From Mytilus galloprovincialis (taxonomy: Eukaryota > Mollusca > Bivalvia > Mytilida > Mytilidae), in contig NC_134839.1 of assembly GCF_965363235.1 (NCBI RefSeq), forward strand, positions 98,909,743 to 98,973,742: a DNA stretch of 64,000 nucleotides, written 5' to 3'. Made by a program: the position numbers and the translations under genes. The notes beneath the pieces are model-generated. The model made no database searches. It was not told the DNA's origin and was given only the letters and a program-made list of their open reading frames with translations. Positions 4,808 through 41,600 of the stretch are shown one piece after another. Position 1 is the first letter of the stretch. Every line of letters starts with the position of its first letter.

Positions 4808-4853
4808 ACGTAGACTAAATTTCTGTACATTTAGTTTATGAAAGGAAGTACTC

Positions 4854-5972
4854 ATGCTCAGGAAAAAGAAAACAGGTGTCTTTATACTAACTGTAATCTT
4901 GTTTTACACCATATTCACGGTTATTGGCTTTGCTGGGATTAATCTGAGCTCAGCAAAAGAAAAGACACAATACAGGGAAAAAATATTCTTTGGTAAGATG
5001 CGTCATACAATACAAATCTCAAATTTAACTCAGAACAATGCACGTTTGTCACAAAACAATGAAGATCCCCTATCTGTTTATAGTTTCACAGGAGGTGGAT
5101 GGAAGTTTTCAAATGTGTGCAACATATCCAAGAAATATTTGAATGATCAAGATTTCTATTTGACTCAAGCTCATTCTGAGGCCGGTTCAGTTAATCTCTT
5201 TGTTCACAATCCTGAGTATGATGCAATATCCGGTACAATTAAACAACGGCGTTCTTTTGAATCAGAGAATGTAGATGCTGTTATGTCAATGTTACGGAAG
5301 GATCAACAGCTGTCTTTGATTGACATTGGAGCCAATGTTGGTATATATGCGTTATCTGCTGCGTTGTTTGGTAGGCAGGTAATAGCAATAGATGCCGCAA
5401 TGGAAAATATACAACACATCTGTGCATCCGTTGAATATGGACATTTTTCTAATAGAGTTGCAATTATATATAATGCATTGTCTGATTCACATGGAAAAGT
5501 TGATTTCAAACATGGAATTAAAGGTGATTTTGGCTTAGGTCATGTAAATGCAGACAGTATTTCCTCAAAAATGGAAACAAAATTCAAGAATTATTTTGAC
5601 AATGGGCGTACAGATGCAGTAGAAGCAGTAAAACTAGACGATTTGCTTAGTCTACCTCACTTAGCCTTTATGAAAAACATCCTCATCAAAATGGATGTAG
5701 AGGGGCATGAACATCGAGTATTGTTAGGTGCTAAACAATTCATGAAACAAAAAATAAAGTCAGTCAGAGGAATTGTTATGGAATGGCAGTGGTTTTCTGA
5801 CGAAGCTGAAAATACAATAAGAAATTTGATGGCTGGATGGAACTTTGCCCCTTACAAATTGAGTGGAATGACAGAACCATTGAAACTAAACCAAACAATG
5901 CACTGGCCAAATGATGTATTGTGGCTTCCAAAATATTCAGCGAAAAATAAGGTCGTTAAATATCATAGGTAA
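4854..5972 (+). CDS. FkbM-type SAM-dependent methyltransferase, membrane-anchored
   Basis: A 372-residue protein read from a single uninterrupted exon. Residues 8-29 are a hydrophobic segment after a basic start (MLRKKK), fitting a type II signal anchor or uncleaved signal peptide. The rest would then face the Golgi/ER lumen; NLS, NLT and NIS sequons at N30, N57 and N90 agree with that. The catalytic domain has the SAM-binding motif I DIGANVG at 157-163, an acidic residue after beta 2 (AID, D180), and the FkbM-family block IKMDVEGHEH at 278-287. FkbM-family enzymes typically O-methylate hydroxyls, often on sugars. Gastropods and bivalves are known to carry O-methylated glycans, so a glycan-modifying role is plausible, but the substrate cannot be read from sequence. 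The ATG is the first in the frame and directly precedes the anchor. An upstream 5'UTR intron is possible. Confidence 0.88.
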   Translation: MLRKKKTGVFILTVILFYTIFTVIGFAGINLSSAKEKTQYREKIFFGKMRHTIQISNLTQNNARLSQNNEDPLSVYSFTGGGWKFSNVCNISKKYLNDQDFYLTQAHSEAGSVNLFVHNPEYDAISGTIKQRRSFESENVDAVMSMLRKDQQLSLIDIGANVGIYALSAALFGRQVIAIDAAMENIQHICASVEYGHFSNRVAIIYNALSDSHGKVDFKHGIKGDFGLGHVNADSISSKMETKFKNYFDNGRTDAVEAVKLDDLLSLPHLAFMKNILIKMDVEGHEHRVLLGAKQFMKQKIKSVRGIVMEWQWFSDEAENTIRNLMAGWNFAPYKLSGMTEPLKLNQTMHWPNDVLWLPKYSAKNKVVKYHR

Positions 5973-12829: not shown

Positions 12830-13125
12830 CCCATATTTGTTTTTACATTTTTACCTATTATGTCTGTATGTTTTGTTTATATCTCGTTGGCAATATAATG
12901 GAATTTGATGCGACTGTCGTAAAAGTAAAAGGTTTAGCTAGCTATAAAACCAGGTTTAATCCACCATTTTCGAAATACGAAATGCCTGTAGGAATATGAC
13001 AGTGGTTATCCATTCGTATGATGTGTTTGAACTTTTAATTAAACCATTTAGTTAGGGAATTTCCGTTTTGAATTTTCCCCAGAGTTCAGTTAATTTGTGG
13101 TTTAACTTTTTTATTTCATTGTGAT
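12830..13125 (+). repeat. Family C (PLE-2 tail)
   Basis: The fullest family C copy: 'TATAATGGAATTTGATGCGA', then 'TATAAAACCAGGTTTAATCC', then 'CTTTTAATTAAACCATTTAG'. Its position downstream of the RT fragment at 11.9 kb is the basis for treating family C as the 3' tail of that element. Confidence 0.65.
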
Positions 13126-13221
13126 GTGATTAGGCTGATAAGAATTGCCATAATGTCAGGACTGTAGACCTAATTAAAATTGTACTAAGACTTCAATATC
13201 ATCCGGACCAAATATAAAAAA

Positions 13222-13440
13222 AAGAAGATGTGGTATGATTGCCAATGAGACAACTCTCCACAAGAGAACAAATTTCACAGAAATAACCAACTATATTAAT
13301 ATATGTACGACCTTCAACATTGTAAAACCTATACCGCATAGTCAGCCTTGAATGCCTTAAAAATGACAAATAAAAAACAATTCAAAACTAATGGTCTGAA
13401 TAATGCATCGTTCGTGTTTTTCGGTCTGGTTTCAAAGTAA
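13222..13440 (+). repeat. Dispersed repeat family A, truncated copy
   Basis: Starts 'AAGAAGATGTGGTATGATTG' and stops around the 'CAAAACTAATGG' equivalent, lacking the second half. Confidence 0.8.
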
Positions 13441-13469
13441 TGACTTTTATTTCGAATTCCTCGATTTAG

Positions 13470-14110
13470 AATAAGAAGATGTGGTATGATCGACAATGAG
13501 ACAACTGTCCACTAGAGACAAAGTTATTAACTATAGGTTACTGTATGGCTTTTAACAATAAGTAAAACACATACCGCATAGTAAGCTTTAACAAAAATTC
13601 GACATGACAAATGTTAAACAATTCAGACTAGAAAACTAACGACTCTTTTCATGTACAAAACAATAGACGAAAAACAAAAATGATAAACAGCAACACATGA
13701 CAACCAAGTAATTACAGACTTTTAACTTGGGTCAAGACATGTAATTACAGGCTTTTAACTTGGGACAAGACAAGTAATTACAGACTTTTAACTTGGGACA
13801 ACCAAGTAATTACAGACTTTTAACTTGGGACAACCAAGTAATTACAGACTTTTAACTTGGGACAAGACAAGTAATTACAGACTTTTAACTAAGTAATTAC
13901 AGACTTTTAACTTGGGACAACCAAGTAATTACAGACTTTTAACTTGGGACAAGACATACAGATTGTGGCGGAGTTAAACGTGTTTGCTGGCGCTTAACTC
14001 TTTTCATATTCCTGATTAGGGTCAGGGGGATAACAGTACAACATAAGAGCAAAGTATAAATCATCAATTGAAAATGGATTAACTCATCGGATCGACACTA
14101 AGAACCGATA
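13470..14110 (+). repeat. Dispersed repeat family A, full copy with internal tandem expansion
   Basis: Forward copy from 'AAGAAGATGTGGTATGATCG' to the 'TTAACTCATCGGAT' end. The middle carries the tandem array described separately. It lies immediately downstream of the minus-strand sulfotransferase 3' end. Confidence 0.85.
13706..13958 (+). repeat. Eight-copy tandem repeat, 32-34 bp unit
   Basis: Eight consecutive units of 'AGTAATTACAGACTTTTAAC' plus TTGGGACAACC or TTGGGACAAGAC. One unit is shortened. Other family A copies have a single version of this segment (ATTACAGGCTCCTGACTTGG), so the array is a local amplification within one copy. Confidence 0.9.
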
Positions 14111-14388
14111 AAAAACATACAAAAACACTATAGACACATATAGTACTGACAGTTACTGAAAGCTGGTTCAAAACCAACAACTTATAAAAAAATCATGTAT
14201 TATAATAATAATATAAGATAATTTTAATGCATTTTTGAAACAAGACTACAGTTTAGCTTTCAAAGTACTAGTAACTTATTCAATATTAAATGATTCAATA
14301 TGATGTGTACATCTGAGTAAATTGTAGTGTCTATATTCTAATCATGGTGAACATGTTATTTGATATAGTAACATATAACTAGTATTAA

Positions 14389-17300
14389 TCATAATTCATA
14401 GAGAAAATTGAGTGTCGTGCCTTTCATGACATCCTTGTAATTTCTGTCAAAAATTTCATTTTGAGCAACTGTGAACCAGTTTTTCCAATCACCAACTTGA
14501 CCTGTAATATAATAATAAACATTATTATAAGTGGTGATCACATGATGATATGTTTTTTTTTCAGTTTAGACTGTGCGAATATCTGAAATATTGTTTACGA
14601 TGATATTCACTTATACATTATGAATGCGATTTATTTTGCTCTGAAGTTCACACTGTGTACATGTATCGGTGGCTCAAAAAAATTTACGGAATGCACCCTG
14701 TGTGTTGTGAAATTTTTTCGGTTTATAAAGTTCTGTGCCCAAAACCATAAAACCTTTTCGATGGATGAACACAGTAATCGTTTTTGGAAAAAAACCTCAG
14801 GAGGATTTTTTTTCTTCAATAACTCACATTGGAACCTTGCAAGGAGATAATTTCAGAAACCATTGTTTATAGAAATCGTAAACAATGGGATTTCATTTTT
14901 TTATGTCATTAAGTTGCAACGTTGTTTTTTAGCGATTAGATTTGACCTGTCTGTAAATGGCATAATCCCCATCATCAGTTTCTAAAAGACAAGATCAGCT
15001 TAAACTCTATAACAAAGGTCCTAGACCCATCGAGTCTCTTGCAATGACATCGGAGACCAATGAACGTAAAACGGGTTGCATGATCAAAAGCCAAGGTAAT
15101 GTCTTAATAGCAAATTATGTGTTTTAGAGTATTTTGTGTGTGTTTTAAAGCTTTTCGAATCATTCTTCGCCTAACTTAACATACACTTTACATTATGAGA
15201 GGAAAGCTCTCTTAATTGTTCACGAACAATTGAATTCTTAATTATAAAATGATTTTGCCTCTGACTAAGATATGTAAATAATTACCCTTTCTAAAAAGTG
15301 TTGATTTTCCACCGTCTGTAAGAAATGATGTTGGGTCTATTCTGTTGGCCTTCAAATTGTCAAAACTACACTTATCAGCTATGGTTTCTGCTAGTTCTTT
15401 GGAACATGATGTTTCAATGAAATCTGCTATTTTTAAAATGTTTCCAGGTAAATCCTAAATATAATGAAAATGATTAGATCCAATTAATAGTAAACATAAA
15501 ATAGAAAAGGATAATTAGCTACGATATAAAAAGAACCCTAAAAATTGAATATGATGTTTTGTTTGTTTATAGCATTTATAAATGCGAATATTGGCGTGTA
15601 AGTTTGGTTAAATTTGGTCAAAATATGCCCCCCCCCCCAAAAAAAAAAAAACAATCGCTGATGTATTATTTGATTACAAGTCAATAATTTAACCTTATTT
15701 GAATTCGTATTGATGTAATCCTAAGATCTCTGAGATGATTTATGTATGAGCTAAACATGTTCGGTAATTAATAGAAGAATCGAAATTACTTCATAAGTAA
15801 AACTGGGAAGCATATAAGAAGAATCATTTCTGTGAAGGATACGGTCCACGAAGAAAACAATCCTTTTAATGCAGGTAAAATGATGATTTTTTTTATATAT
15901 ATATGAGATGAAATCATACAGACCTAGACAAACTATCATTTGCCTTTCTATTTATATTCATATTTGTATTTATATCAGGTGACAAAGCCATCGATAAACG
16001 ATAATCTGGAGGGGACACCTCAAGGTATAATTTGATACGCACAACATAATGATAAATTATATCGACCCCAGGCATTGTTTATTGCTTCTTTTGATATTTA
16101 CAGCAAATGCTACTTTAAGACAGATTATTGATGACAGTAAGAACAATCCCTACACATTTGTAAAACACTGATAAAATAAGAACAATCCCTAAACATTTGT
16201 AAAACACTGATAAAATAAGAACAATCCCTAAACATTTGTAAAACACTGATAAAATAATAATTGTTGTATTGTTGTTTCTATTAGTATGAAATGAGAAAGG
16301 AAATATGCTAAACACTGGGACGTATACACTTTTATTTTTATACATAAAATAAATATTTTTGATGGATCTAGAGGATCGTGTATTTGTTTAAACGACAGGG
16401 CAACGGTGTGTATTTTTTTTTTCTTCATATGAAATCAAATCTATGCACATAGTTATAGTGATATACAAAGGGACAATGTCTAAAAATATTTTTTAAACTA
16501 TATCATAATAGCATTCCAGCGAAAATATGTTGCACTGTGATAAATATAATAATCTGTGATAGATCAATGCTAATTCCTACCTTTTTCATGTCTTCATAAT
16601 ACAACTGTAAGATGTTATCATGACCTAGTTGCTTTTCCCATTCTTTCGTATACTCATACCATCCGCCGTAAAGAGCACCTATAAAGAAATAAACATGATG
16701 ATTTTAAGTTTTTACCATTTTATATCCTGTACTAAACTAAAAGAATTTGATTTAAAAAAAGGTATGATTGGAAATTAGTCCTATAACATAATACTTCAAA
16801 AAGGCTAGTTTATATATCGTTTACTTTTTAGCGTATTTTCGGAGTTTTTTCACCATTCAATGCTGAATCACGTTATCCGGCATTGATAGTAAAAAAATAT
16901 CGGTGGTTCAGCATTGGTTGTAAAAATAAACTAAATATCCGTATCTTTGCCTTGAAAGTAATAAAAATATCCGATAAACAACATTGAAAGCAAACGATAT
17001 GGACCTACGAAGGCTTATATTATACAACTAAATTGCAAATAGGAAAACTATCAATAGAACTGGATAGTTCCAGGTATCTGTACAGTTTTCAACCATGCGC
17101 AAACTAATAGCCTATAGAATACTATCAATAGATTTTAATAATTCCAGGTCAGTGTACAGTCTTCAACTATGTCCAAACTAATAGCCCATAAGAAAGCTAT
17201 CAAAGGCCTTGGTATGACCAAAAGTGAAAAAAAGGTTTACAAAAGAAAACTTACGATCTCATATATTAAAAAGTTAACGAAAATCAAATATGACAGACAG

Positions 17301-20300
17301 CAACCAACGACACCTACTCTAGACAATCATATAAAGAACCTGGTCGGGTTAAACTTTTTTGTGTTGCTCGACCCTCCCGATTCCTGGGTCAATCAGTGGT
17401 GCAAACACATACAGAAAAAACTTTAAAAATCAATTTATTGTGTATCCAATTTCATTATATATATATATGGAAAATACATTGCCCTGTATCGTTTCTTTAG
17501 TTTTGTTATGTAAGTCATGTGTACAAACCTTCGTCTTTAATAACTGTCTTTTCAAAAAATTCCTCCCATGACAAATGTTTTTCAATAGCTGATTTCCCCT
17601 TTTCAAAATTATACAAGGAAACGAAGAGATCTTTAGGATTTCTCTGAACATATACTATCTTCCCTTTTCCATTTTGAAGCTGACTAGGGAGGTATCTATA
17701 TGGCATATGTGTCATGAGAAGTCTTGGTGATGGCATCTTCGTTACACTATCTATAGGGTCGCACATTTCTAAAAGGCCCTTTTGTTTGACCCATAAGTTG
17801 TAGCTCGTCGATTGAGACATTAACATGGATAAAACTTCGTGTGTCCAGTTTGTTCCTACAAAAAAAGCTCAAAATATTTAATAAGCCTCTTTTTTTTAAT
17901 AAGATAAAGCTGTTAAAATCATCGAAGTATCCAAAACGATCTGTGCCAGTACTCTGTTTGTTTTGCAGACACATTGTTGTTAGTATAATGGAATTTGATG
18001 CGACTGTCATACAAGTGAGAGGGTTAGATATAAAACCGTGTTTTATCCAAAATGTTCTCCATATGCCTGCACCAAGTCAGGAATATGACAACTGTTATCC
18101 ATTCGTTTGATATGTTTGAGCTTTTAATTTTGCCATTTGATCAGGGACATTCCCGTTTGAATTATACTCGTGAGTTTTTTTGTGATTGAAGAATGCAGTT
18201 TTAACAGGAAAACGTCAATTATTCATTGAGATTACAGTAGTTTGTTACTTAATTAGAAAAAAATGCAACATTTGTATACAGCTGTACGTTGACATACTGA
18301 TATTTCCAACTGCAAGTTATAAGGGATAGTGCTAGTAATCGTATTGCTCGCCTTATAGCAGTGGGAATGTGTCATGAAAATCCTAAATGTTTAGAATACA
18401 TATACATGTACCGGGGTATTTACATATATTACCTGCTTTTGGAAAGGAGCAAAGATAAACATCAGTATCACGGCATTCCATATCTTGTTTTTCTTTGAAT
18501 TTTTTTTCCGAATCAGGGCACAAACCCGGAAAAGGTGGCCACATCACATTATCATACACAAATGGCCCTCCCATTTTCATTATTTTTTCTCCAAGGCTTT
18601 TCATCTCTCTGAAATGAAATTTGATATACGTTTATACATGTAGCTCTTTTCATAATGCTAGCAAGACAAAGGTTTGTTTGTTTGTTTGACTTAATTCATC
18701 TGCAAACAATATAAGTAAGCGGAGTTCAATCCTGTGTATTATAGTGAAATTTGATAATGTCTAATCAAATTTAAATAAAATGTATACAAGTTTAAAAATG
18801 CCTTTTTATGTACATGTAGTTTTCATGTGTCAACCTTTATTACAATGCTTGAGAAAACATTTATAGAAACTAAGCAAGCAAGTCAAACAAATCTTTGTCT
18901 TGCTAGCATTATGAAAAGAACTGTAACAATTTTTGCTAAATAATCACATGGAAACCTGTCTACATTATGATCGAAGTGCTACAATGAACAACAATGATAT
19001 ATCAACAAAAGTATTGTGAATACAACGTATCTTAACAGTTTGGTATAAAACTTTTACTTCAGCAGATTAATAGGAACTTAAAATATGCACTTACGTTTTA
19101 TATTGTTCCATCTTTGTAAATGAATCAATAATATTATATCATAGCAAATTGTCGTTCAACCTTATGAACCATGGTTATCCAATGAGGCAAACGTTGTACG
19201 ATCATATTTGTTTTGTCTGCAGGAAGTTTATTTATTTAAGGATTTTAAGGAGACATTTCAGTATTAATCATTCTAAATTCAAGTTAAAAAAGTTCAATAT
19301 AAAAGCACCCTACACTGATATGAAGTGTGTTTGATAATAATTGATTAAAATACTAGTAACACTTCGTAAAATGCGTCCGAGGGATTTTTCTCAATTTACC
19401 TTCTTCTGGAACGGTTAAACATAAACTTTGAAAACGAGGGGGGTTAATACAGAGAAAGTTTAACAGCTAAAAAGGGGCTTTGAATAAAAACATGAATAGC
19501 TTAATTCAATTAAGGTCAACTGTGCCCGAGGGAGTCAAAACCTTAACAAGAGTTTTAGTTTTTATGGCGTCTAACTGTTTACTGCATTTAGTTTATTATT
19601 TGATGTATCCTTTCTGTCTGTTTATTTATTTTTGGAATATACCCATATAAAGATTGATTGATTGATTGTTGGTTGCTTAACGTCCAGTGGAAAATATTTC
19701 ATGCATGTTCAGGACGAGAACAGGTTAACCACAAATACAATAAGTAGGTCTTGTAAAAATAGAGGCCATCATGGATGATGGTCTGGGAGATTTGGACTGC
19801 CACTGCTAGGTAGATTGGATAGGGACAGAAATTTTGCCTTTGCTTGCAACAGGCCACCTACGGACCCCTCAAAAAGTTGTTGCAAGGTTTCTTAATGTGC
19901 AAAGAGCATATGATTTAACCCTTTAACCCCCAATCCCGCCTGTAGGCGTGATGGCGACCACCATTCTTTGATGGCCCGTATGACCCTCCATACTTTTTTT
20001 GAACTGCCCCACCTGTCAGGATAGCAGGGACTTCAACCAAGCAGTTCATGGTCCATAAACTCATATACGGACGTCTGTTTATGAAAATATGGCACTTTGA
20101 AAGCCGTTTAAGAGTTCAAAATCGGAAAAACTTGAAAAGTAGCCAAAATCAAGTGGGGGTGGGCATCTTTTGATGGCCATTACGTAACTAGTTGTCATTG
20201 TAGGTATACACTATTATCGTGAATGCATGCATAGGTGATATAGGAACACAAAGAGGTATAATATGGCCATTAGGAAACTAGTCTGTAAAATCTAGGTCAC

Positions 20301-21464
20301 CATTTTGTCAAAAATTCGTATAAACAGACATTTAGGCAGACCTGACTTAACAATAATAATTCGCCAGCAAGACACTTTAAGTCCCATATACTCCCAGTTA
20401 GCATGAATGGACTGCAGTAACTATAGTGTAATACTTGAATGACAAAGAAACACAGTCTGGTCAATGTTTACATCTCAAGGTCGTTTTAAAATCGGAAAAT
20501 AGACGGAAAATGACCATTTTTCAGTGTGGGTGGGTTCAAATCCACGAGAAAATCTTCCACCTCCCACCCTACCCCCCACCCATGCCATCTGCCCCCAAAT
20601 CTCAATATATAGTTTAATAGATGAGCATCAATTACAGCATCAAGAGTCTGCTAATTTGCATATAATTTGCATATGATTACAAATTTTCGAAAATGTCTGA
20701 TTTTCTAGAAACCTCTTGGGGGCGAATGAGTTAACGTCCCAATTCTGACCGGACGTCGCTGCAAACTTGACATATCCCGCACAGCCAAACGGACGCCTCA
20801 CTTTGGCAAGCGTTTTACTGCCGGTCGATAAAAGACAAGGTGACCATATTTCGTGTTTCCAGTCACCCTTGGGGGTCCCATGTAAAGAGACATGGACATT
20901 ACTTTCAAAAAAAGTAAAAAAAAACAATTAATTAAGATGAATTTGTTGCACTTGTGTCTACCAATTGACAAAATGTCGTGGAGTAAAAACCACATACCCC
21001 TGCTAATCTCATTAATTTTTCGTATATTTTCTTGTCTTGATTTATGTTACATGTACTAACTGCTTATACAAAATAAAAATAGAGCATAGAAAAAACGGGG
21101 GAAAAACTTATAATTAACCATTTGTTTCAGTCATTAAATCAATTTTTCAACTGTGAAATTGGACCTTTACAAGTAGTCAAAATGATAATCAGAGACTAAG
21201 TGTTACTACTAAAAAAATATATATCAAATATATCACACTGTCAGACTTAATCGATTGCTGACGTTTACTTTGAGTACTTTATGGTCGCATATATAAGAAA
21301 ATGAAATCATAGGGCACTATTATATGTAGTTGTTCTAATTATGTCTGATTTATTATAGAACTCGTTTTATTCTTAGTAATTATACACAATTGAAACTATA
21401 AGAAAAGAGAAAAATCTTGTATAAGTAGAACATATAAAAAAACTTACTTGTGTGCACTTTCCAT
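14389..21464 (-). CDS. Cytosolic sulfotransferase (SULT1-like), gene 1
   Basis: Predicted PAPS-dependent cytosolic sulfotransferase that transfers sulfate to hydroxyl groups of small molecules. Coding exons in transcript order: 21464-21448, 18608-18433, 17855-17529, 16678-16581, 15454-15286, 14501-14389 (stop TGA at 14391-14389). All junctions are GT-AG and in phase, giving 299 residues, a normal SULT length. Visible motifs: 5'-phosphosulfate loop CSFPKAGTNW (K63), catalytic His in [10 protein letters not shown] (H114), 3'-phosphate block [15 protein letters not shown] (R136, S144), and the C-terminal RKGQVGDWK (R261-K262-G263). The KxxxTVxxxE dimerisation motif reads [10 protein letters not shown]. 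The start ATG sits in a 17-nt exon encoding MESAHK, with TATAAATA 39-46 bp upstream. It is head to head with gene 2 and has the same intron phases. The substrate cannot be predicted. A shorter start at 18604 was rejected because the tiny first exon is conserved in both genes. Confidence 0.9.
14502..15285. other. Last intron of sulfotransferase gene 1
   Basis: Holds a stretch at 14620-14850 that is open on both strands (about 60-76 codons), which is a composition effect and not a gene. No recognised repeat family. Confidence 0.5.
15455..16580. other. Intron 4 of sulfotransferase gene 1
   Basis: AT-rich. Contains a C8/A12 low-complexity junction near 15628-15650 and the 39-bp tandem array at 16139-16255. 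No exon seen. Confidence 0.5.
16139..16255 (+). repeat. Three-copy 39-bp tandem repeat
   Basis: Exact 39-bp period starting at 16139, 16178 and 16217. The unit begins AAGAACAATCCCTAAACATT and ends ACACTGATAAAAT. The first unit differs by one base. Intronic, with no coding meaning, although it keeps one minus-strand frame open. Confidence 0.9.
16679..17528. other. Intron 3 of sulfotransferase gene 1
   Basis: Holds a diverged tandem duplication at about 17045-17200: the block 'CAAACTAATAGCC' with the preceding 'CCAGGT.....TACAGT' occurs twice about 85 bp apart. An 85-codon plus-strand frame (17169-17426) lies in this repeat and was not called. Confidence 0.4.
17856..18432 (+). repeat. Intron 2 of sulfotransferase gene 1, with family C copy
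   Basis: Positions 17935-18190 are a forward family C copy ('AATGGAATTTGATGCGACTG', 'GGAATATGACAACTGTTATC'). The rest is AT-rich. No exon. Confidence 0.6.
18641..18930. repeat. Inverted repeat (foldback) in intron 1 of sulfotransferase gene 1
   Basis: Arms of about 50 bp: left 'CATAATGCTAGCAAGACAAA' at 18653 and its reverse complement 'TTTGTCTTGCTAGCATTATG' at 18894, with about 200 bp between. Outer and inner flanks (TTTGTTTGACTT / AAGTCAAACAAA) extend the pairing. Likely a small non-autonomous element. Confidence 0.75.
19630..20990. repeat. Long dispersed-repeat region inside intron 1
   Basis: Begins with a GATT microsatellite and 'GGTTGCTTAACGTCCAGTGG', a block I recognise as common in mollusc intergenic DNA. 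It is richer in G+C than its surroundings and holds short G- and C-runs. No protein family was recognised in any frame. The boundaries are approximate, and the flanking 18.9-19.6 kb and 21.0-21.4 kb look like plain AT-rich intron. Confidence 0.4.
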
Positions 21465-21502
21465 CTCTAAACATTTATGGTATTCAATAGAACATGTTAG
21501 TT

Positions 21503-21510
21503 TATTTATA
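21503..21510 (-). promoter_or_regulatory. TATA box, sulfotransferase gene 1
   Basis: TATAAATA on the minus strand, 39-46 bp upstream of the ATG at 21464. Same spacing as in gene 2. Confidence 0.7.
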
Positions 21511-21873
21511 TTCTACATAAAATACATATGAAGGTTACACATGACGTGTACACTTTAAAAGTTTAGAAGGTGGAATGATGAATAACCGAGTAATAACAAA
21601 CGATGCTAACCTGATTGTATGATTAATAGTCGACTGGGTAACACATTTTATTTCGTAATGAAATAATCGATTTATAATATACAAATAGAATGATGCTTTG
21701 TGCGAATCTGTTATTATTTACATAGCTTAGACATATGTCGTCCAAACTAAATTCATTATTAGTACATGAATGACGAAATAAAATATGTTACTCTATCATA
21801 CCTACTCTTCACATTTCATTCCACCTTCTGAACTTTTAAAGTGTACGCGTCATTTAGGTATTTCTATGTAGAA

Positions 21874-21881
21874 TATAAATA
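21874..21881 (+). promoter_or_regulatory. TATA box, sulfotransferase gene 2
   Basis: TATAAATA lying 39-46 bp before the ATG at 21920. The spacing predicts a very short 5'UTR. It mirrors the box of gene 1. Confidence 0.7.
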
Positions 21882-21919
21882 CTTTAACATGTTCTGTTAA
21901 ATACCATACATGTGTAGAG

Positions 21920-24900
21920 ATGGAAAGTGCAAACAAGTAAGTTTTTTCTATGATTCTATTTATTCGGGAATTTTCTCTTTTCTTATAACTGTGCTTTTTT
22001 ATTTATTTAGTATAATATGTATGTCATGTAAATCAGACATAAAATGCAATAGTAGAAAAAATAGATAGTGTTTGAAAATTTCTTTTGTCTAAATACGTGA
22101 TCACAAAGTACAAAGGCAATCGATTCTCGTTAACAGTGTGATCTATTTGGTACAATATAGCATTAACTCTTCGTTTTATTAATTTGACTACTTGCAAAGA
22201 CTAATTTCACAGAAAAAATAATTTAATGAGTGAAACAAATAGTTAATGATAAGTGTGTTTTCAGTTTTTACTGTGATCTATTTTATTATGTATTAGCAGT
22301 CAGTAGATGTTAATTTTCTTTTAAAGAATTGACCCCAACAAGAAAATGGAGCTTAGTGGTGGTCCATTTATGTATGACGGTATAATATGGATCCCTTTCC
22401 CAGGGCTTTACCCAGAACCCGAGAAAAAATTTAAACAGATACGAGATATGGAGTGTCGTGATTCAGACGTATTCTTGTGTTCCTTTCCAAAAGCTGGTGA
22501 GTGTTCCTTAGCATGTATAAAATAACGAGATAAAAAATAACAACTTTAGCTCAAACCTTTGCTATATGAACGATTAAAACCTTTGTTTCTGTTCATAGCA
22601 ACGAATATTATAAATCTATATTTTTTTTACTTTCTAACGTCCAATTAATTATTCATTTTGCCTTCACTTCATCAAAGGAAAATTCATCTGTATTTTTTGC
22701 AGGCACACACTGGACCCACGAAATACTATCTATGCTGCTCTCTGGTTCTACACAATACAACCAATACAATACAATTGAAAACATGATTGAAGCAGCTAGC
22801 ACATTAGACAAAATTAATAGTGCACCTTCTAGAAGGCTACTAGTAACACATTTACCTTACAAATATCTCCCTGAACAGTTGCGAAACGGAACTGGAAAGA
22901 TAGTATACGTCCAAAGAAATCCGAAGGATCTTCACGTGTCAATGTATAATCATTTAAAAGGAAAGGGAATCATGAAAGAGGGGACTACATGGAATGAGTT
23001 TATTGAACAAATATTTACCGGTCAATGTAAGTCAAGTTATTAACTGTAGAAATATTACATTTTTTCAACAGGGGCAGTAGTTAGGGGCAGTAACTACTGC
23101 CCATCTAATAGTTGATTGTTAACTTGGGGACAACACATGAGTAGTTACTTCCCATTTTGATGATTTTACTCACATGTTAAAAAATACATTTATACATTTA
23201 AAAATCATCCTTTCATTCATTTGAAGAATGTATGTTTGATTTGCCTTGAAACAGACAAACTATTAAGTGCAGTTGGTGTGCCACTCTCCAATCATGAGGT
23301 TTCCAACCGAACGTGAAAGCATACCCAAAAAGAGCATTTCTATATGAAAACTCTATCGAGTATGTCTCCTAATACAGTATAGCGTATGATCAACTTTATA
23401 TATCCGGGTTTTTTAATTCAGTTGTTTAAATACGGAATGCGTCGAATCTGCTGATAAATTTGATTTAAACATTACACATACAACTATCAGCAATCACATT
23501 TCTATTGTTCAGTGGTTTCTATTCCAATATTAGTGTTTCATAAAAATAATGGTTTTTCTTTCTGTCGCTCTGTCTGAAAAAACTAGATAAAAGCAAATTC
23601 TGCCGTTTGAGTGCTTTATTATCCTCGAATCTTAGGGTTTTGCCTCTACAAATAAAGAAAATGTTATAAACGGTGTTTGCTTTAACGTTTATGTGTTCTA
23701 TTTATAGTGAAAATGTTTGGTGGATGGTTTCAGTTCAGTAAAGATTGGGAAAAAGAAATCGATATAAAGAAGAACATATTGCCATTATATTATGAAGAGA
23801 TGAAACAGGTAAAACAGTCTAACATAATCTAGGCTAAGTGTTGTCGTGTTCAAAGTTGATGTTACTAGTTGTTTTTTTAAATAACTACGCGGAAACTATT
23901 TTGCCATATAACGCCTTAAATTTATAAAGGAAATAATTATCCTAGTTAGATATCATAGAATTGCCCGGTTACCCTTCAGACTGAATCGAAATTTTAATTT
24001 CAAAATACCTATGTTTTGAAATAAAATATCTTCTTCTATTGTCAGGTTTTGTTTATAAAAAGAATAGAACAATTGAAATAAAATATATTTTTTTTTAATT
24101 ATAACCTTAGGACGATAAGATTTCATATAAAACCACACAAAACCTGCTAACACTATAGATAAAATAATTTACTACAAGTCCAAATTTTCTACAAACAAAG
24201 AAATTAATAATAATATTTCAAAATATCGACCGAGAATACCTATATCAGAGATAGCAATTATTAAACATTTTTTTTTCTTTTCAGGACATAACTGGAAACA
24301 TATTGAAAACGGCTGAATATTTGAACGTGCCATGTAAAAACGAATTTGCCATGGAAGTTGGAGATAAATGCAGTTTTGATAAGCTAAAGAACAACAAATT
24401 AGATTATACAGCTTTAGTGGATAAGAACAGAAAGTCAACCCTATTCCGAAAAGGTATTTACTATATAATAATATAATGGAGAAAAAAATGTATCGTATAT
24501 GATTGGGTACATGCAGATACTATTTAACATTTTAATTATTCTATTTTGACACATACACACCCTATCGAAAATATAATGCTTCATGTAAAAAGATAAAAAT
24601 AAGAGGGTTTTTCTCAGTATACCTTTTATCATTATATTGTTCTTAGAATTAAAATGTAGGCATTATCTGAACTTCTTGTCGTTCGTAATTGTTTGCTTCT
24701 ATGAAAATAAGTAGATATTGCGGTGTTGCCTATATGACAACTATCCTACAGACATAAACAATTATAAGCAAAACCAATACAGTTTAGTAAGCTACAAAGA
24801 CGCTAACATGACAATATAGGAATAATAAAGAAAACCAAACGAAAAACAATCAACGAAAAACAAATATGGTAGACAGTAAGAAATACAAAGAAAAACAAAA

Positions 24901-26012
24901 ACAAAAGATATGGAGTACCCATCCATGACACAAAAACAAAAGATATGGGATACCCATCCATGACACAAAACCAGTACATGCACAACATATACAAAACAAA
25001 GGAACAGCGCTTTCGTTGTTGTTTGATATTTCAAAGCCACAGTGAGTCCTTCAACAAGTATGACAGCGCTCACTTTTTTATTCAAGCATCGCGAATTAGT
25101 ATTTTGCAGACGAAACGCACGTCTGCTGTTCAAAATGATAAGCCTAGTATATTTGATGAGTTGTCTCCCTTAACATAGGATAATAGTGTAACAGTACAAT
25201 ATAAGAACAAACTGTACAGTAGGAAAGAGCTTGATTACCTCAAAGTTGTTGTAGTGTTTGCTTTGCTTAGTCTTTTTAAATAATTATCCTATGTAATTTT
25301 TTGTGGACTTGTTTCTCTTTTTGCGTTTTGAGTTTCTCTTCGACTATCTCCATGGTATCTTTCGCAGTTTATTTGGCTTATCAGATTTCCATGTAATGTA
25401 GAAAACTTGTCAAAAAGAAAAAAAATTAGAAAAGTACTAACATACTCACAGTAACTAAACCTAGTAGCCCAAAGCCACTCTCAACAAAAATATACCTATG
25501 TTTCCCACACTAGAATATCAATCAGTATACATCCAGCAGATTTAGTAAAATACATCATGAACATTTTGATAAAAGTATGAAATATTAGTATCGAATAAAT
25601 GTACAAATAGAGAGTAAAGTTATTAAGATAAGAGGATGTGGTATAATTGCCAATGAGACAGCATTCCACAAGAGACAAAATTACACAGACATCAACAACT
25701 ATAGGTAAACGTACGGACTTCAACAATGGCTAAAACCCACACTGCATATTACAGCAACTATAACTTTTTAAGTTACACTTTGGACTGTCAATATGTCATG
25801 TAATCGGTGTGTAGAAAACAACAGAGTTTCAAGGATTTTCAGATTTTGGTAAATCTTGGAGTCAATGTATAAATGAATATATTTCAAAATTTCTTGCAGG
25901 TCAGGTAGGAGACTGGAAGAACTGGTTTACGGTTGCACAAAATGAGTGTTTTGGTGCATTGTATGATGATGAAATGAAAAGTTCCAATCTTAAGTTTACG
26001 TACGAGCAATGA
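21920..26012 (+). CDS. Cytosolic sulfotransferase (SULT1-like), gene 2
   Basis: Paralogue of the divergent neighbour. Coding exons: 21920-21936, 22327-22496, 22703-23026, 23708-23808, 24285-24453, 25900-26012 (TGA at 26010-26012). Every junction is GT-AG and in phase, giving 297 residues. Motifs: PAPS 5'-phosphosulfate loop CSFPKAGTHW (K61), catalytic His in VTHLPYKYLP (H112), [15 protein letters not shown] (R134, S142), RKGQVGDWK (R259-K260-G261), and the dimer motif [10 protein letters not shown] matching KxxxTVxxxE. All catalytic features are intact, so an active soluble enzyme is expected. Exons 5 and 6 have exactly the same lengths as in gene 1 (169 and 113 nt). Exons 2-4 differ by 3 or 6 nt. 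Substrate unknown: the variable loop between the two halves differs strongly between the paralogues, so they may differ in acceptor. A candidate AATAAA lies at 26204. Confidence 0.92.
23027..23707. other. Intron 3 of sulfotransferase gene 2
   Basis: AT-rich intron. A short duplicated 'GGGGCAGTAGTTA' pair occurs near 23070-23090. Otherwise nothing recognised. Confidence 0.45.
23809..24284. other. Intron 4 of sulfotransferase gene 2
   Basis: AT-rich, ends in a strong T-rich tract before CAG. No other feature. Confidence 0.5.
24454..25899. repeat. Last intron of sulfotransferase gene 2, with repeat fragments
   Basis: About 24700-24870 is a worn family A-like copy. At 24895-24970 the block 'ACAAAAGATATGG' with CCCATCCATGACAC is repeated in tandem. 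25040-25140 carries a family E fragment ('GACGAAACGCACGTCTG'). 25622-25760 is a forward family A head ('GATGTGGTATAATTGCCAAT'). No exon. Confidence 0.55.
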
Positions 26013-26203
26013 TAATAACTAGTTTTCCATTATACATTAATACATTATACATTTCAATCAAATATGTAACCAATCTCAATATTTCAGGGAAAATAAATTT
26101 CAGCTACATGTACTTTATCAGTCCATACTGGTGTGTGCTTATTTATGTATACTATTTATAAATGCATGTATGTGTGTTTAGTTATGTATATATTTTTTTA
26201 ATG

Positions 26204-26209
26204 AATAAA
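26204..26209 (+). other. Candidate polyadenylation signal, sulfotransferase gene 2
   Basis: AATAAA 192 nt after the stop codon, in AT-rich DNA and followed by a T-rich stretch, so this is a plausible but unproven signal. Confidence 0.45.
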
Positions 26210-26371
26210 AAAACTATGATATTTTTTTCTGTTTACAAGTTTTTTAAAATTTTTAAATTTTATTCGATATAGTTTATCACGAAATTTACCTGGCAATTTT
26301 ATGGTTATTTCATACATGGTATTAATCAATATCTATTTTGTTTGTTAGTGCAAAGCTACTTAAATTAATAA

Positions 26372-26715
26372 AATTAACGGTACCAATTTTCTTGCACCAG
26401 ATACGCATTTCGACAATACATGTCTCTTCAGTGATGCTCGTAGCCAAAATCTTTGAAATCCAAAGCTTATATTAAAGAATAAGAGCTATAATCCAAAAGG
26501 TCCAAAAAGTATAGCCAAATACGTGAAAGGAATAAGAGCTTTGCATGAGGGAGATACATTCCTTAATTTATAATAATTTATATCATTTTGTAACAGCAAA
26601 TTTTAATAACACAAACAATCTGTATTTTCATGCCAGTACCGAAGTACTGGCTACTGGGCTGGTGATACCCTCGGGGACTAATAGTCCACCACCAGAGGCA
26701 TCGAAATTAAGTTAA
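26372..26715 (+). repeat. Dispersed repeat family E
   Basis: Contains 'TTTTCTTGCACCAGATACGC', 'ACATGTCTCTTCAGTGATGC' and, further on, 'GGCTGGTGATACCCTCGGGG'. The latter part recurs in reverse at 42.58-42.66 kb ('GAGGGTATCACCAGCCCAG'). No coding capacity. Confidence 0.6.
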
Positions 26716-26719
26716 CCCA

Positions 26720-27324
26720 TATTTATATGATTTATTTAAGAGACATTGATTGTTGACATGTGCATTTGTTGCAGAAACAATAGTACCGTTTATGTTATTA
26801 CACACTGAGTGATAATTAACATGGTATATGGTTAGAACGTTTGTCTTGACTTATAGCGATTAAGTTAGGAACATGGATGTGGTTTATTAAGACCCTTAAG
26901 AGCGACGTATTTATATTGGACAATTTTAAAGACTAAGAGTGATTTAGAACATGCTTTTATTTATAGATGTTTTTTTTTTTTTAGTCTGTGAGTTTATTAT
27001 AGAATGATTTTGCCTTTTCACAGTATCGGTTTTGCTCAAGGTCGAAGACCATACAATAAGAGTTTTTTTTCTTCTACACTTTGTATGATTAAGTGTATGC
27101 TAAGGTGTTAACGCTCCAGACTATAAGTAATTCAGACTGAGATGAAGATTTATGTTATGGGTTTTTTCTCTAGATATAGAGTGAAATAATTGTCACTAGA
27201 CGCTAAGCAGGCAACAATCTATCACGAGTAGTATAATTGTTTCTTGTAAATAGTTTCTATATGTTTTTTGATGTTTTAGTCTGCAGAAAAATGGCGCATT
27301 TATTGAAGTCCAACGACAATTAAT
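26720..27324. other. Spacer, nothing recognised
   Basis: Intergenic DNA just outside the large inverted duplication. No feature. Confidence 0.4.
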
Positions 27325-29115: not shown

Positions 29116-31816
29116 GATTTTCATATCAGTGCTCGTTACTTGTTTCATCACTAATGATGCGTACGCAGCCCAGTGCGGGTGTGCAACAGACCCTTTGCAT
29201 GTTCGATCTGGAGCAGGAACAACGCATCGAATTTTAGGAACAGTCCCTGCTGGCGAATGTCACACAGATAAAGGAGGCAGACAAACAGCTAATGGATATA
29301 CATGGGCTAATATTGACTATAATGGACAAGTAAGTTCGATGTATTGCAGAAATTTGAAGGAATAAACAATACTTGATAGAATGTGTTGTGTGCTAAATTA
29401 TGCTTTTGTATTTTCCAAAAGTTTTCTTGTTTTCGTGTAACTGTTGTGTAAGTTTGTAAGAATTATACTAAGCAAGATAATATACTAGCAGATAACACTG
29501 ATTAATTAGCCAAAAAAGGAGAAATGGAAACGAACTTAACCACGTCACTCTGTGTTCTTGTTAGATGTATTTCTATTTGTATCCATCTGATGAGTTAAGA
29601 TTTTATCAACTGATTTTTACAGTTCGTTCTTATTTGGAACGGTTAAACCACTGTCCCAGGTTAAGGGGAAGGTTGTTATCCCGCTAACACGTTAAACTCC
29701 GCCACATTCTGTATGTATGTGCTTTTCTCAAATCAGGAGTCTGTAATTCAGTGGTTGTCGTTTGTTGACTGTCCCTCTGGTATCTTTCGTCCCTCTTTTG
29801 TTGATCTGTTACATGTTTTATTTTCGTTTATTTTTTATTTTTTTGTACACAAATCAGAACACAATTGTTCTCGTTTGAATTGTTTTACATTTGTCATTTT
29901 TTAATTGACTATGCGGTATAAGCTGCTCATTGTCGAAATTTCTGAGTCATTTGGTCTCTTGTGAAGAGTTATTTCATTGCAATCATACAACATCTTCTTT
30001 CTTAAATTCATAAATAATTACCACAGATAGGTATTGTGTAGCGGCATATCGCTACAAGTATAATTTGTGTTTTCACGTTTACTATGATAGGCATACATTT
30101 TAGAAAAAAGCACAAGTAGCCAATGATTTAAACAAAAACCACGATAAACCAAATGTTTATTCAACATTTTAGGATGCTTGGGCTGCAATCAATTGGCTGA
30201 ATTTTAAAGCTTGTCAGAGTAAGTAATACTATAGAATAAGCTAAAAAAACAAACACGGTTGGTAATACCTTATGTTGTCCCTTCTAACGATTGGTTATAA
30301 TTAATTATTCAGGAACGGTAAAGAGACATATATATTGGCATTAATAAAAATGCATTCAAGTGCGAAATTTAGTCAGCCATAAAACCAAGTTAAATCTGCC
30401 TTTTCTACATAAGGAAATGCCGGTTCCATGTCAGGTATATAACAGTTGTTTTCCATTCGTTACTGTTTGAGCTTTTGATTCGGCCATTTTGTAAAAGACT
30501 TTCCGTTTTGAATTTTCCTTTGAGTTCGGTATGTTTGTTATTTTATCTTTCAAACCTTCTTCCAAGAAAAAGTATTGATAAAATTATGTCACTGTTAACT
30601 ATATTTATATGCTTCAAAATAAACGGCAGACGTATTTCCATGTTTGTTTTGTATAAGATATAGAAGACATTTTTGTTGCAGCCAATCAAGCATCTACGTC
30701 TATAGGCTGTCCAAACATTGTATCACGTGCTGGATGGGGTGCTCGTAGTCCAACAATTCCACACTCTCTTTTAACACATACCCCAAATCACGTGTACATC
30801 CATCATGGCGCCTCAGGAGGATGTCATACACAGTCAGCATGTATTTCTAAAGTCAAGGCGTACCAAAATTACCACATGGATGGCCATCGTGAGTATCTGT
30901 AATTTGAATATTTTTTTTGTATAAAGTTACCAATTGACAGCTCTTATAGCTCTCTTACTCCGTTCTTTAGATTTTAATAAGTACGACTCTCTCCAAGATT
31001 ATTTCTTGTCGTGAGCAATGTGATAAGTATATCTTGGAAAAGAAACTAGAATGAAATTCAAAACAGTGTGGCTGTGGCCATTGATTGACACATTAAATTC
31101 ATCCATTGACTGGGACAATTTACATGAACGTTTGTCTGTAACGACCACTGTTCACGACGTACCTACGATAGACATTTAAACTGTGGGGTCACCAAAGGTT
31201 TCTTAACGCCTTTAATTATAAAATAATTCAAAAAATTAATCAGGAATAACCTTTATGTTTTGATTTACATAATTGATATAAATCAAAACATCGTTTTATT
31301 TCTGATTAGTTTTTCGAATTACTTTATTAAGGTGTTGAGAACCTTTGGTGACCCCATAGTTTAAGTGTCTTTAAAAAGTACATAGTGAACAGTGGTCGTT
31401 ACATACAAACGTTCACCTAAATTGTCCCAGTCAATGGATGAATTTAATGTGGCAATCAATGGCCACAGCCACACTGTTTTGAATTTCATTCTATTTGAAC
31501 TTTTGAGCGCAGCATTGGTTTTCAGGTTCATTTCGAGTTACATAAATAATCTTTACATTTTGGTGTAATGGTATTATGCCATCGGTTGTGTGATCAAGTG
31601 ATTTTTACAGCAAATAACAATGAGGGCATTCCGATGCATTTCTACCCACGTGAGTTGCGTTTTTGACTGATTTCGTATTACTGCTCGGATATTATCGAGG
31701 GCACTAAACATTCCTTATCGCTTGTTATATATATATTAATTTCTTCAAAACATATTCATGCAAATAATTTTTTTAGAACATAGATAAACGATATGAAAAT
31801 GTTTTGTCGCGAGAAA

Positions 31817-38653: not shown

Positions 38654-41600
38654 TCAGTGGTGATAATGAGGCCATGTTTGAATTAAATCATACAATTTCT
38701 GACCAGGACAAGCTGTTTGTCCGACATCTCTGTGACCTTTAAGTATATAGTTGGCTGTGATTTTTCCTTTATTGACTCCGCACTTTATAAGATTCTTTAT
38801 TGCATTAAGAGCAGCGGTATTTGGAACATGTTCCATGAAGTTACCAATGACACAGATACCTGTGGCAAAAATGTAGTCGTAAATTATGTCCAATATGTCA
38901 TCGCTCCAAACAATTCGTTGCAAGTAAAATGAACGCATCGGTCTGTATAATTTGAGTTTTTATATGTATTTATTTCAAAAGTAAGATATTGTGAATGGTT
39001 AATGAATCTTTTTTGTAGAAGATTCCAAAAGTTTGAAGAAAAGTTAAACAGTCCAGTTAAGTTCTTTCAACGAATCACGAAGTTGCAAAGATTTCATGTA
39101 AAAGGCAAAAGATGTAAAATAAAGAAGTACTGCGAAGAAATTAACTATTTATAGCTTCTACTTACTTAAAAAACTGTCAAATAACAAATTACTTAATGTT
39201 CACATATTTACCAAACAACTCTTCGTATTTTCCCCTTATTTTTTGAAATGACATAGTCCTATAATAGTGGCAGTCATATTTGAGTAAATCCAAATTATAA
39301 AGGTCAAACTTCACAGATGCATCATTTTTCTACAGTCACACCTTTGATCCATTGTACGATTGTTTATATTGATTTTTGTAAGTGCTGTAGTCGTATGATC
39401 TACTATGCTGATGACTACACTGCTGTCACATGTTTGTTCATTAGAAGATGTATACTAGTATATATTGCTCATACAACATATATGGAATAAACGGATTAGC
39501 TAATTAATCAAATACTTTTACCTAGACCATCATGGTTATGATGCAAAGTGTGAGCTCCCACAGCGTCCCATCCCCTGGCTTCATAAACATTACCATCTTC
39601 CCCGACCACAAAACTGTATTCAATGTCACTATAGTCTGTAAAATACATATAGCTTAATCAATCTTATCGTCCGTCATATAAACTTGAATTCCCAGTCTTG
39701 CTATTCAAATTTGTACAGAGAAGGGGTTGAAACATTGTCATCATCTACATCAATATTTCTTGGATTATTACTTCAGCTTAAAAAAAAGTAAAGCACTATT
39801 GTCGTATAGCACGACAAAAACTCTCCAATACCATACAGTATCTTGATATTTTGTCACTAAAAACACCTGAATATTTGCGATAGAGGGGCGAAAAATATCA
39901 AACTCATAAATCGAAAATAAACTTACAACGCCATGTCTAACAAGGGAAAAGACAAACGGACAAATGATAGAACACAAGATACAACATAGAAAATTAAAGA
40001 CGAAGCAACACGAACCAAACCAGAAACTGGGGGTGATCTCATGTGCCTGGTAAAGGTAAGCAGATAGTGATCCACATGTGGCATCCGTCGTGTTGCTCAT
40101 GTTATTTCAAACCCGGTAAATAGTCTAATTCGGTAGATCACATTCGTGAAAACTGTATGTTGTCCTCTGGAAGTCAATTGATTATGTTTGTTGCTTGTAA
40201 CTTTTTCGTTGACTGATAATTACCAACAAGTATTTACTACATTGCCTTTTTCAAATAATTATCTTAAAATTAGAGGTTACTAGGTTACCAATTAAGCTAT
40301 CAAACATATAATATTTGGGTAAAAATTCTAAAATGTAGCATGATAAGACAACTCTCTTACAGACAAAAACAATCGTTACCTATTTTTAGTTCACCTGGCC
40401 CAAAGGTCCAAGTGAGCTTTTCTCGTCACTTGGCGTCCGTCGTCCGTCGTCGTCGTCGTTAACTTTTACAAAAATCTTCTCCTCTGAAACTCTTGGGCCA
40501 AATTTAACTAAACTTGGCCACAATCATCATTTGGGTATCTAGTTTAAAAAATGTGTCCGGTGAACCGGCCAACCAACCAATATGGCCGCCATAGCTAAAA
40601 ATAGAACATAAGGGTAAAATGTAGTTTTTGGCTTATAACTCTGAAACCAAAGCATTTAAAGCAAATCTGACATGGGGTAAAATTGTTTATCAGGTCAAAA
40701 TCTATCTGCCCTGAAATTTTCAGATGAATCGGACAAATGGTTGTTGGGTTGCTGCCCCTGAATTAGTATTTTTAAGGAAATTTTGCCGTATTTGGTTATC
40801 TTAAATACTATTATAGATAGAGACAAAAGAGGGACGAAAGATACCAAAGGGACAGTCAAACTCATAAATCTAAAACAAACTGGCAACGCCATGGCTAAAA
40901 ATGAAAAAGACAAACAAACAACAGCACACACGACACAACATAGACCTGTAAACAGCATTAATATTCAGTAAAGTAAGATCTAAAAATAAGTCAACATTAT
41001 CAAAATGGTCAGTTGACCCCTCAAGGAGTTATTGCCCTTTATAGTCAATTTTTAACAATTTTCATGAATTTGGTAATGTTTTGTAAATTTTTACAAAAAT
41101 ATTTTTCCTTGTATCTAAAGGGCCAAGTGTATTATAGATAGAGAAAATTGTAAGTAGCAAGACTGTTCAGTAAAGTAAGATGTACAAACACATCACCAAA
41201 ACACAATTTTGTCATGAATCCATCTGTGTCCTTTGTTTAATATGCACATAGACCAAGGTGAGCGACACAGGCTCTTTTGAGCCTCTAGTTCATAAGTGAT
41301 AAGATATTGAAATTTAAGAGAGTATACATGTCTACACACCCGACTGCCTAACTACCGTACACCACTTAATTAATAACCGATATTTTCGTTTGGAAATCAG
41401 GTTTAAAAATCAGTTGAGTTGGGCTTACTTTACTCATAAAATTTTCTACATAGCACAAAAAAATTATAAAACAGCAAAAAATCAAAGTTTGGTTCTAAGA
41501 GTTCTAGTTGTGTGTCTGTAAGTTTTGAAATTTATTGTTTACAATATTTTTCTTTTATTCATGAAGGTTATTAAGTTGTAGGTGCGAGTTCTTTTGGTTC

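Follow-up and report, generated by a model that had tools for sequence, protein, structure and literature searches.

Mirror-image start regions, probably younger than the genes they serve, in a divergent pair of mussel sulfotransferase genes

In a stretch of 64,000 nucleotides from the mussel Mytilus galloprovincialis (NCBI RefSeq assembly GCF_965363235.1, contig NC_134839.1, positions 98,909,743 to 98,973,742; hereafter the window), two intact, divergent sulfotransferase paralogues, which we call L (minus strand) and R (plus strand), have start regions that are diverged mirror copies of each other. What is distinctive about the pair is that these start regions are alike and the coding regions far diverged. 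Most simply, the 5' module, i.e., promoter, exon 1 and intron 1, would have a much younger common ancestor than the two genes themselves, a reading based on sequence comparison to which we assign a probability of roughly 0.6.

Genes L and R and their mirrored arms

The models of both genes were built by hand from the sequence alone (Table 1), and both predicted proteins contain a full-length sulfotransferase domain (Pfam PF00685; profile positions 1-254 of 255 in each). The best matches of R to proteins of solved structure, by sequence, were 5x2b, an entry labelled simply Sulfotransferase, and SULT1B1 / SULT1C2. L and R are members of the sulfotransferase family, and enzyme activity is predicted for both. 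The initial annotation of this locus had placed their start codons 455 bp apart, and this was borne out: the ATGs lie at 21464 (minus strand) and 21920 (plus strand), with 455 bp between them. Divergent pairs with a bidirectional promoter are those in which opposite starts lie less than about 1 kb apart, and the spacing of L and R, measured from ATG to ATG, is within that range. In both genes the ATG begins a 17-nt coding exon, which is followed by GTAAGT and is in frame with the downstream exon 2; intron 1 interrupts the frame in an identical phase and measures 390 bp in R vs 2839 bp in L.

Around these starts we found two arms in inverted orientation, matching each other within the window at E = 8e-76. 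In a global alignment of arm against arm 399 of 470 sites matched, with 26 gap events and a Kimura two-parameter (K2P) distance of 0.169; in a gapped local alignment, counting gaps, identity was 73% over 536 columns, with ends at 21049 and 22310. The inverted arms first described at 21437..21965 are therefore real but longer than was thought, reaching 21049 on one side and about 22310 on the other, where the right arm stops about 15 bp short of exon 2 of R. The same elements do occur as an inverted copy in both arms, as had been claimed: a block with GGTGGAATGA and TGACG, then TATAAATA, the 17-nt exon and its donor. By contrast, the symmetry does not extend almost to the centre: in the central 237 bp it is not significant, as 170 of 2000 dinucleotide shuffles reach at least the same score. 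The best inverted match within them, of 22 nt (21638-21659 / 21770-21791), was considered as a symmetric element and rejected on the same shuffles, although it had exceeded 100 out of 100 shuffles under another null in which only one copy was shuffled. An artefact of assembly by read foldback is argued against by the 15% divergence between the arms.

Each arm would comprise a TATA-type core promoter of its own together with the same upstream element; the 455-bp spacer would amount to two promoters placed back to back, and the two enzymes may start under similar control. Its location between two open frames and the mirroring of TATAAATA suggest that the spacer drives both genes. The upstream blocks have a possible likeness to TEAD or CRE sites, on which we base no claim.

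Table 1 Coordinates of the two genes and of the features around their starts (positions within the window).
Feature	Positions	Strand	Basis or remark
Gene L, sulfotransferase, 299 amino acids	14389..21464	minus	Hand-made model, GT-AG introns, open frame; PF00685 E = 2.1e-57
Gene L, six exons	21464-21448, 18608-18433, 17855-17529, 16678-16581, 15454-15286, 14501-14389	minus	Hand-made model
Gene R, sulfotransferase, 297 amino acids	21920..26012	plus	Hand-made model, GT-AG introns, open frame; PF00685 E = 2e-52
Gene R, six exons	21920-21936, 22327-22496, 22703-23026, 23708-23808, 24285-24453, 25900-26012	plus	Hand-made model
Left arm: upstream block, TATAAATA, exon 1, about 400 bp of L intron 1	21049..21580	minus	Inverted alignment
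Right arm: upstream block, TATAAATA, exon 1, nearly all of R intron 1	21814..22312	plus	Inverted alignment
Upstream block, left arm, contains GGTGGAATGA and TGACG	21541..21578	minus	38 nt, 95% complementary to 21816-21853
Upstream block, right arm	21816..21853	plus	38 nt, 95% complementary to 21541-21578
TATAAATA of gene L, 46 bp before the ATG	21503..21510	minus	Position; putative TATA box
TATAAATA of gene R, 46 bp before the ATG	21874..21881	plus	Position; putative TATA box
Central spacer without significant symmetry	21579..21815		237 bp; score reached by 170/2000 dinucleotide shuffles
Part of L intron 1 without counterpart in R	18612..21048		Holds an 821-bp dispersed repeat and a short inverted repeat
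Exon-1-like site (ATGGAA, 11 nt, then GTAAGT), possible former first exon of L (speculative)	19095..19111	minus	In frame with L exon 2

Divergence of the arms and of the coding regions

The coding regions of L and R are old and near synonymous saturation. Specifically, the two proteins share 165 of 296 residues (55.7% amino-acid identity), their genes differ at 34 of 53 fourfold sites, and synonymous divergence (dS) was 1.40 by LWL85 and undefined by NG86. In a tree of exon 3 with 31 rows (R, L and 29 of the 58 other listed exon-3 sites), R and L are sisters with 96/93 support and fall together in 97% of 200 bootstrap trees. Between the two genes neither introns 2-5 nor the 600 bp of 3' flank showed homology above 100 shuffles (scores of 18, 29, 28, 29 and 25, where the highest of the shuffles gave 33, 33, 42, 33 and 36, respectively). 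By contrast, the arms differ at 71 of 470 sites, far less than the fourfold sites (p = 9e-14) or the third positions of exon 2 (32 of 56; p = 3e-11). Judged against synonymous sites and other introns, the arms, which are 85% identical, appear younger than the sequence that flanks them, as expected of a palindrome with gene conversion from arm to arm. It had been proposed that an inverted duplication copied the promoter together with the gene; the pair do appear as divergent sister paralogues with mirrored, core-promoter-like elements, but a single event followed by normal divergence fits poorly with a distance of about 0.17 in the arms, fourfold sites near saturation and introns 2-5 that cannot be aligned.

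Within the arms, divergence is close to even. The K2P distance was 0.109 in the upstream block, 0.153 in the core promoter and leader, 0.062 in exon 1 (17 sites) and 0.150, 0.217 and 0.172 in three successive sections of intron 1; mismatches were spread along the arms without clustering (permutation p = 0.43) and were about as frequent in intron 1 (57 of 348 sites) as in the promoter (13 of 105; p = 0.36). Conserved blocks standing out from diverged surroundings, which the initial annotation had described, are therefore not found within the arms: it is the arms in their entirety that stand out from all the sequence beyond them. The step from block conservation to functional sites is correspondingly weak, given that conservation in intron 1 comes close to that of the promoter and indels there are not depleted; moreover, if the 5' module is younger than the genes, as is likely, its conservation says little about functional sites.

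To calibrate these values we used 29 other sulfotransferase loci of the same genome, forming 406 pairs, of which the 281 with less than 0.5 amino-acid identity were not aligned; an intron was counted as alignable when more than 100 bp of it could be aligned. The intron beside exon 3 was alignable in 13 of 13 pairs at an amino-acid identity of at least 0.85 and in 5 of 8 pairs at 0.77-0.85 (i.e., in 18 of 21 pairs at 77% or more), and in just 1 of 104 pairs at 0.5-0.77. One intron match, of 183 bp between loci L030 and L040, was taken at face value. The identity of R and L over exon 3 is 0.52, and despite this their arms resemble the introns of a pair such as L018/L020, in which the introns are 85% alike, amino-acid identity is 0.86 and 6 of 30 fourfold sites differ.

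As a control for 5' sequence, we compared the 6-7 kb upstream of exon 3 in five older pairs drawn from seven loci (L023/L025, L023/L029, L025/L029, L031/L033 and L009/L026), and found no collinear, non-repeat 5' noncoding match within that distance in any of them. Two shared segments had seemed at first to be such homology and hence to contradict a younger module: one far upstream and common to L023, L025 and L029 (about 2.5 kb before exon 2 in L025 and L029), the other directly upstream of exon 2 in L025 and L029. Both were rejected, as they proved to be dispersed repeats; each has 40 or more scored copies (from 2354 and 1165 candidates, respectively). A third match between L025 and L029 was not collinear, the match between L009 and L026 overlapped the exon-2 match of L009, and L031/L033 gave none.

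Accounts of the young start regions

A 5' module younger than its genes could have arisen by two routes, between which we cannot choose firmly. In the first, an old head-to-head duplication would have had its arms made alike again by gene conversion once the coding regions had separated, conversion being bounded outward by the L intron 1 sequence that R does not share. In the second, promoter, exon 1 and intron 1 would have been duplicated at a later time as a cassette of about 500 bp, and the copy grafted in inverted orientation before the other gene, giving it a new start. After either event the module would have diverged at a nearly even, neutral-looking rate, and a simulated uniform process (K 0.20, indel rate 0.06) reproduces the arm statistics that we examined.

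We regard conversion as possible, if still tentative. The distal limit of similarity, 21049, coincides with the start of the L intron 1 sequence that has no counterpart in R; R and L are sisters and share the phase of intron 1; and an account of the Caenorhabditis elegans hsp16 genes reports conversion in head-to-head pairs (PMC3966223). Arms that differ by 15% are, however, a poor substrate, which means that conversion must have stopped long ago, and it has left no trace in exon 2, which in R lies close to the arm, nor in the GC (guanine and cytosine) content of the arms, which is not raised.

Grafting seems to us rather unlikely as the specific route, although it would explain why similarity ends sharply on both sides. 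It could also account for the exon-1-like site at 19111, in intron 1 of L and in frame with exon 2 of L, as a former first exon of that gene; the pattern of this site (ATGGAA, 11 nt, GTAAGT) had no occurrence in 254,062 control strand-bases. Set against this, the site was spotted after the fact, the sequence upstream of it resembles the arms no more than shuffled sequence does (69 and 59 of 500 shuffles with at least as high a score), and the copied piece would have to end by chance about 15 bp from exon 2 of R. A bolder version, which we consider doubtful, is that of regulatory capture within the gene family: a cassette of some 500 bp would have been mirrored onto an old neighbouring paralogue, whose former first exon (19111) survives in the new intron, and the palindrome would be the record of that event.

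The main alternative to a younger module is constraint, i.e., one old inverted duplication of the whole gene, after which strong purifying selection for co-regulation kept the promoter and intron 1 alike, in effect the proposal of the initial annotation with intron 1 added. It is economical, in that a single event accounts for the arrangement, and it sits well with TATAAATA being mirrored at an equal distance of 46 bp from both ATGs. It requires, however, that about three quarters or more of each arm be constrained, such that most of about 500 bp, intron included, must have outlasted the coding sequence. Mismatches are unclustered, and block models in which 60% or 70% of sites are constrained fit poorly, as clustering reached or exceeded the observed value in 98.5% and 95.5% of 200 runs each. 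Nor do indels point to selection on the intron: their number per substitution in intron 1 of R and L (0.42) is not below that in seven control intron comparisons (0.17-0.34). Among the calibration loci, alignable introns beside exon 3 are all but absent from pairs as far diverged as R and L, the single case in 104 noted above. Considering this, we think it unlikely, though worth taking seriously, that constraint explains the arms.

Several observations weigh against a younger module. Indels are fewer in the promoter and exon 1 (2 over 122 sites) than in intron 1 (24 over 348; p = 0.036), a shortage that favours constraint, fits a working promoter and hints at constraint there. Block models with 75% or 80% of arm sites constrained also fit the arms. 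The GC content of the arms is 27%, not raised as long-lasting GC-biased conversion might do. The age of the arms was gauged against synonymous sites and other introns of one genome and is thus relative, with no date attached. Finally, the 5' control is weak: exon 1 of the control loci may lie inside or outside the 6-7 kb compared, and with the queries used L023 had no exon-2 match at E 1e-3 or better and L026 none at all.

A foldback (inverted-repeat) transposon that happens to contain both starts is very improbable. Two inverted arms flanking an unrelated centre in a repeat-rich region would suit such an element, and the initial annotation had itself named copies elsewhere in the genome as a finding that would undo its proposal; however, each arm contains an in-frame coding exon with its splice donor, and searches of the genome (1.385 Gb in 331 contigs, the window being on the contig labelled C2; very common words were skipped) with the 529-bp stretch first annotated and with the left arm matched at this locus only, as did a 34-nt pattern taken from the block, which hit the two arms only when up to 3 mismatches were allowed for. 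The transposon was rejected on these grounds. A scan of viral contigs for the block, which carries little weight, gave no match, and a permissive search of positions 13000-27000 for known RNA families gave one chance match, outside the arms and far below the family cut-off.

Family context, neighbouring features and implications

Known systems resemble the L/R locus in part. The C. elegans genes hsp16-1 and hsp16-48 are likewise head-to-head paralogues that reportedly arose by duplication and inversion, with conversion invoked for similarity that stops at the flanks; whole gene modules are described there as identical, whereas L and R are alike in the 5' module only (PMC3966223). Palindromes of mammalian X chromosomes also have inverted arms whose similarity may be maintained by conversion, but those described are large and over 99% identical (PMC8981503); the arms of L and R measure about 500 bp and are 85% identical, which places any conversion in the past. 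Bidirectional promoters of divergent pairs, as described in PMC2688522, similarly lie between opposite genes with starts a few hundred bases apart; in L and R, by contrast, the two halves are mirror copies, the genes paralogous and the shared activity putative. In the parts of the literature covered, we found no head-to-head sulfotransferase pair with a bidirectional promoter and no closer case.

Cytosolic sulfotransferases are reported to be expanded in the scallop Chlamys farreri, with 83 genes (PMC5700196), and the mussel family is similarly large, with at least 60 exon-3 sites in the genome (R and L included), a number that is a lower bound. Of 31 neighbouring pairs within 200 kb among these listed sites, 29 pointed in the same direction. 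The other two, both divergent, were L/R, whose exon-3 sites are about 5 kb apart, and a pair 37 kb apart on the contig labelled C4; no listed divergent pair other than L/R is thus less than 37 kb apart.

The unshared part of L intron 1 contains the 821-bp repeat (19914-20734), which is 89-94% identical to the other near-full copies listed and occurs elsewhere in the genome both as single copies and in tandem arrays, whose periods are roughly 0.94 kb in contigs C1 and C160 and about 1.06-1.18 kb in C6. Immediately before exon 2 of L lies a short inverted repeat (18642-18696 / 18868-18922) with arms of about 55 nt, 88% alike and of the size of a small miniature inverted-repeat transposable element; no other copy of it appeared among the matches listed, in a search dominated by the 821-bp repeat. 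A short dispersed element resembling a short interspersed nuclear element, at 25630-25748, recurs in at least ten other places of the window and in many copies in the genome. Farther off, an inverted repeat at 31044-31200 / 31340-31496 (157-nt arms, 91% complementary, 139 nt apart) is foldback-like and lies near a gene that, judged by eye, may encode a protein of the peptidoglycan-recognition type. Open frames elsewhere in the window contain an N-acetylmuramoyl-L-alanine amidase domain (38657-38959, minus strand; PF01510, E = 5e-9), an FkbM methyltransferase domain (4842-5969, plus strand; PF05050, E = 2e-11) and, in a frame of 1034 codons with a long low-complexity tail, the end of an adenylate/guanylate cyclase domain (55128-58229, minus strand; PF00211, E = 2e-5).

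If its start regions are the younger, the L/R locus would offer a clean natural case for separating conversion, grafting and constraint, once other mussel genomes have been aligned. Should constraint hold after all, an intron and a promoter would have been kept better than the coding sequence they serve, which would itself be remarkable and the more surprising biology. If the 5' module is indeed younger than its genes, the promoters of paralogues can become alike again after their proteins have diverged, and a likeness between two such promoters need not reflect binding sites kept by selection.

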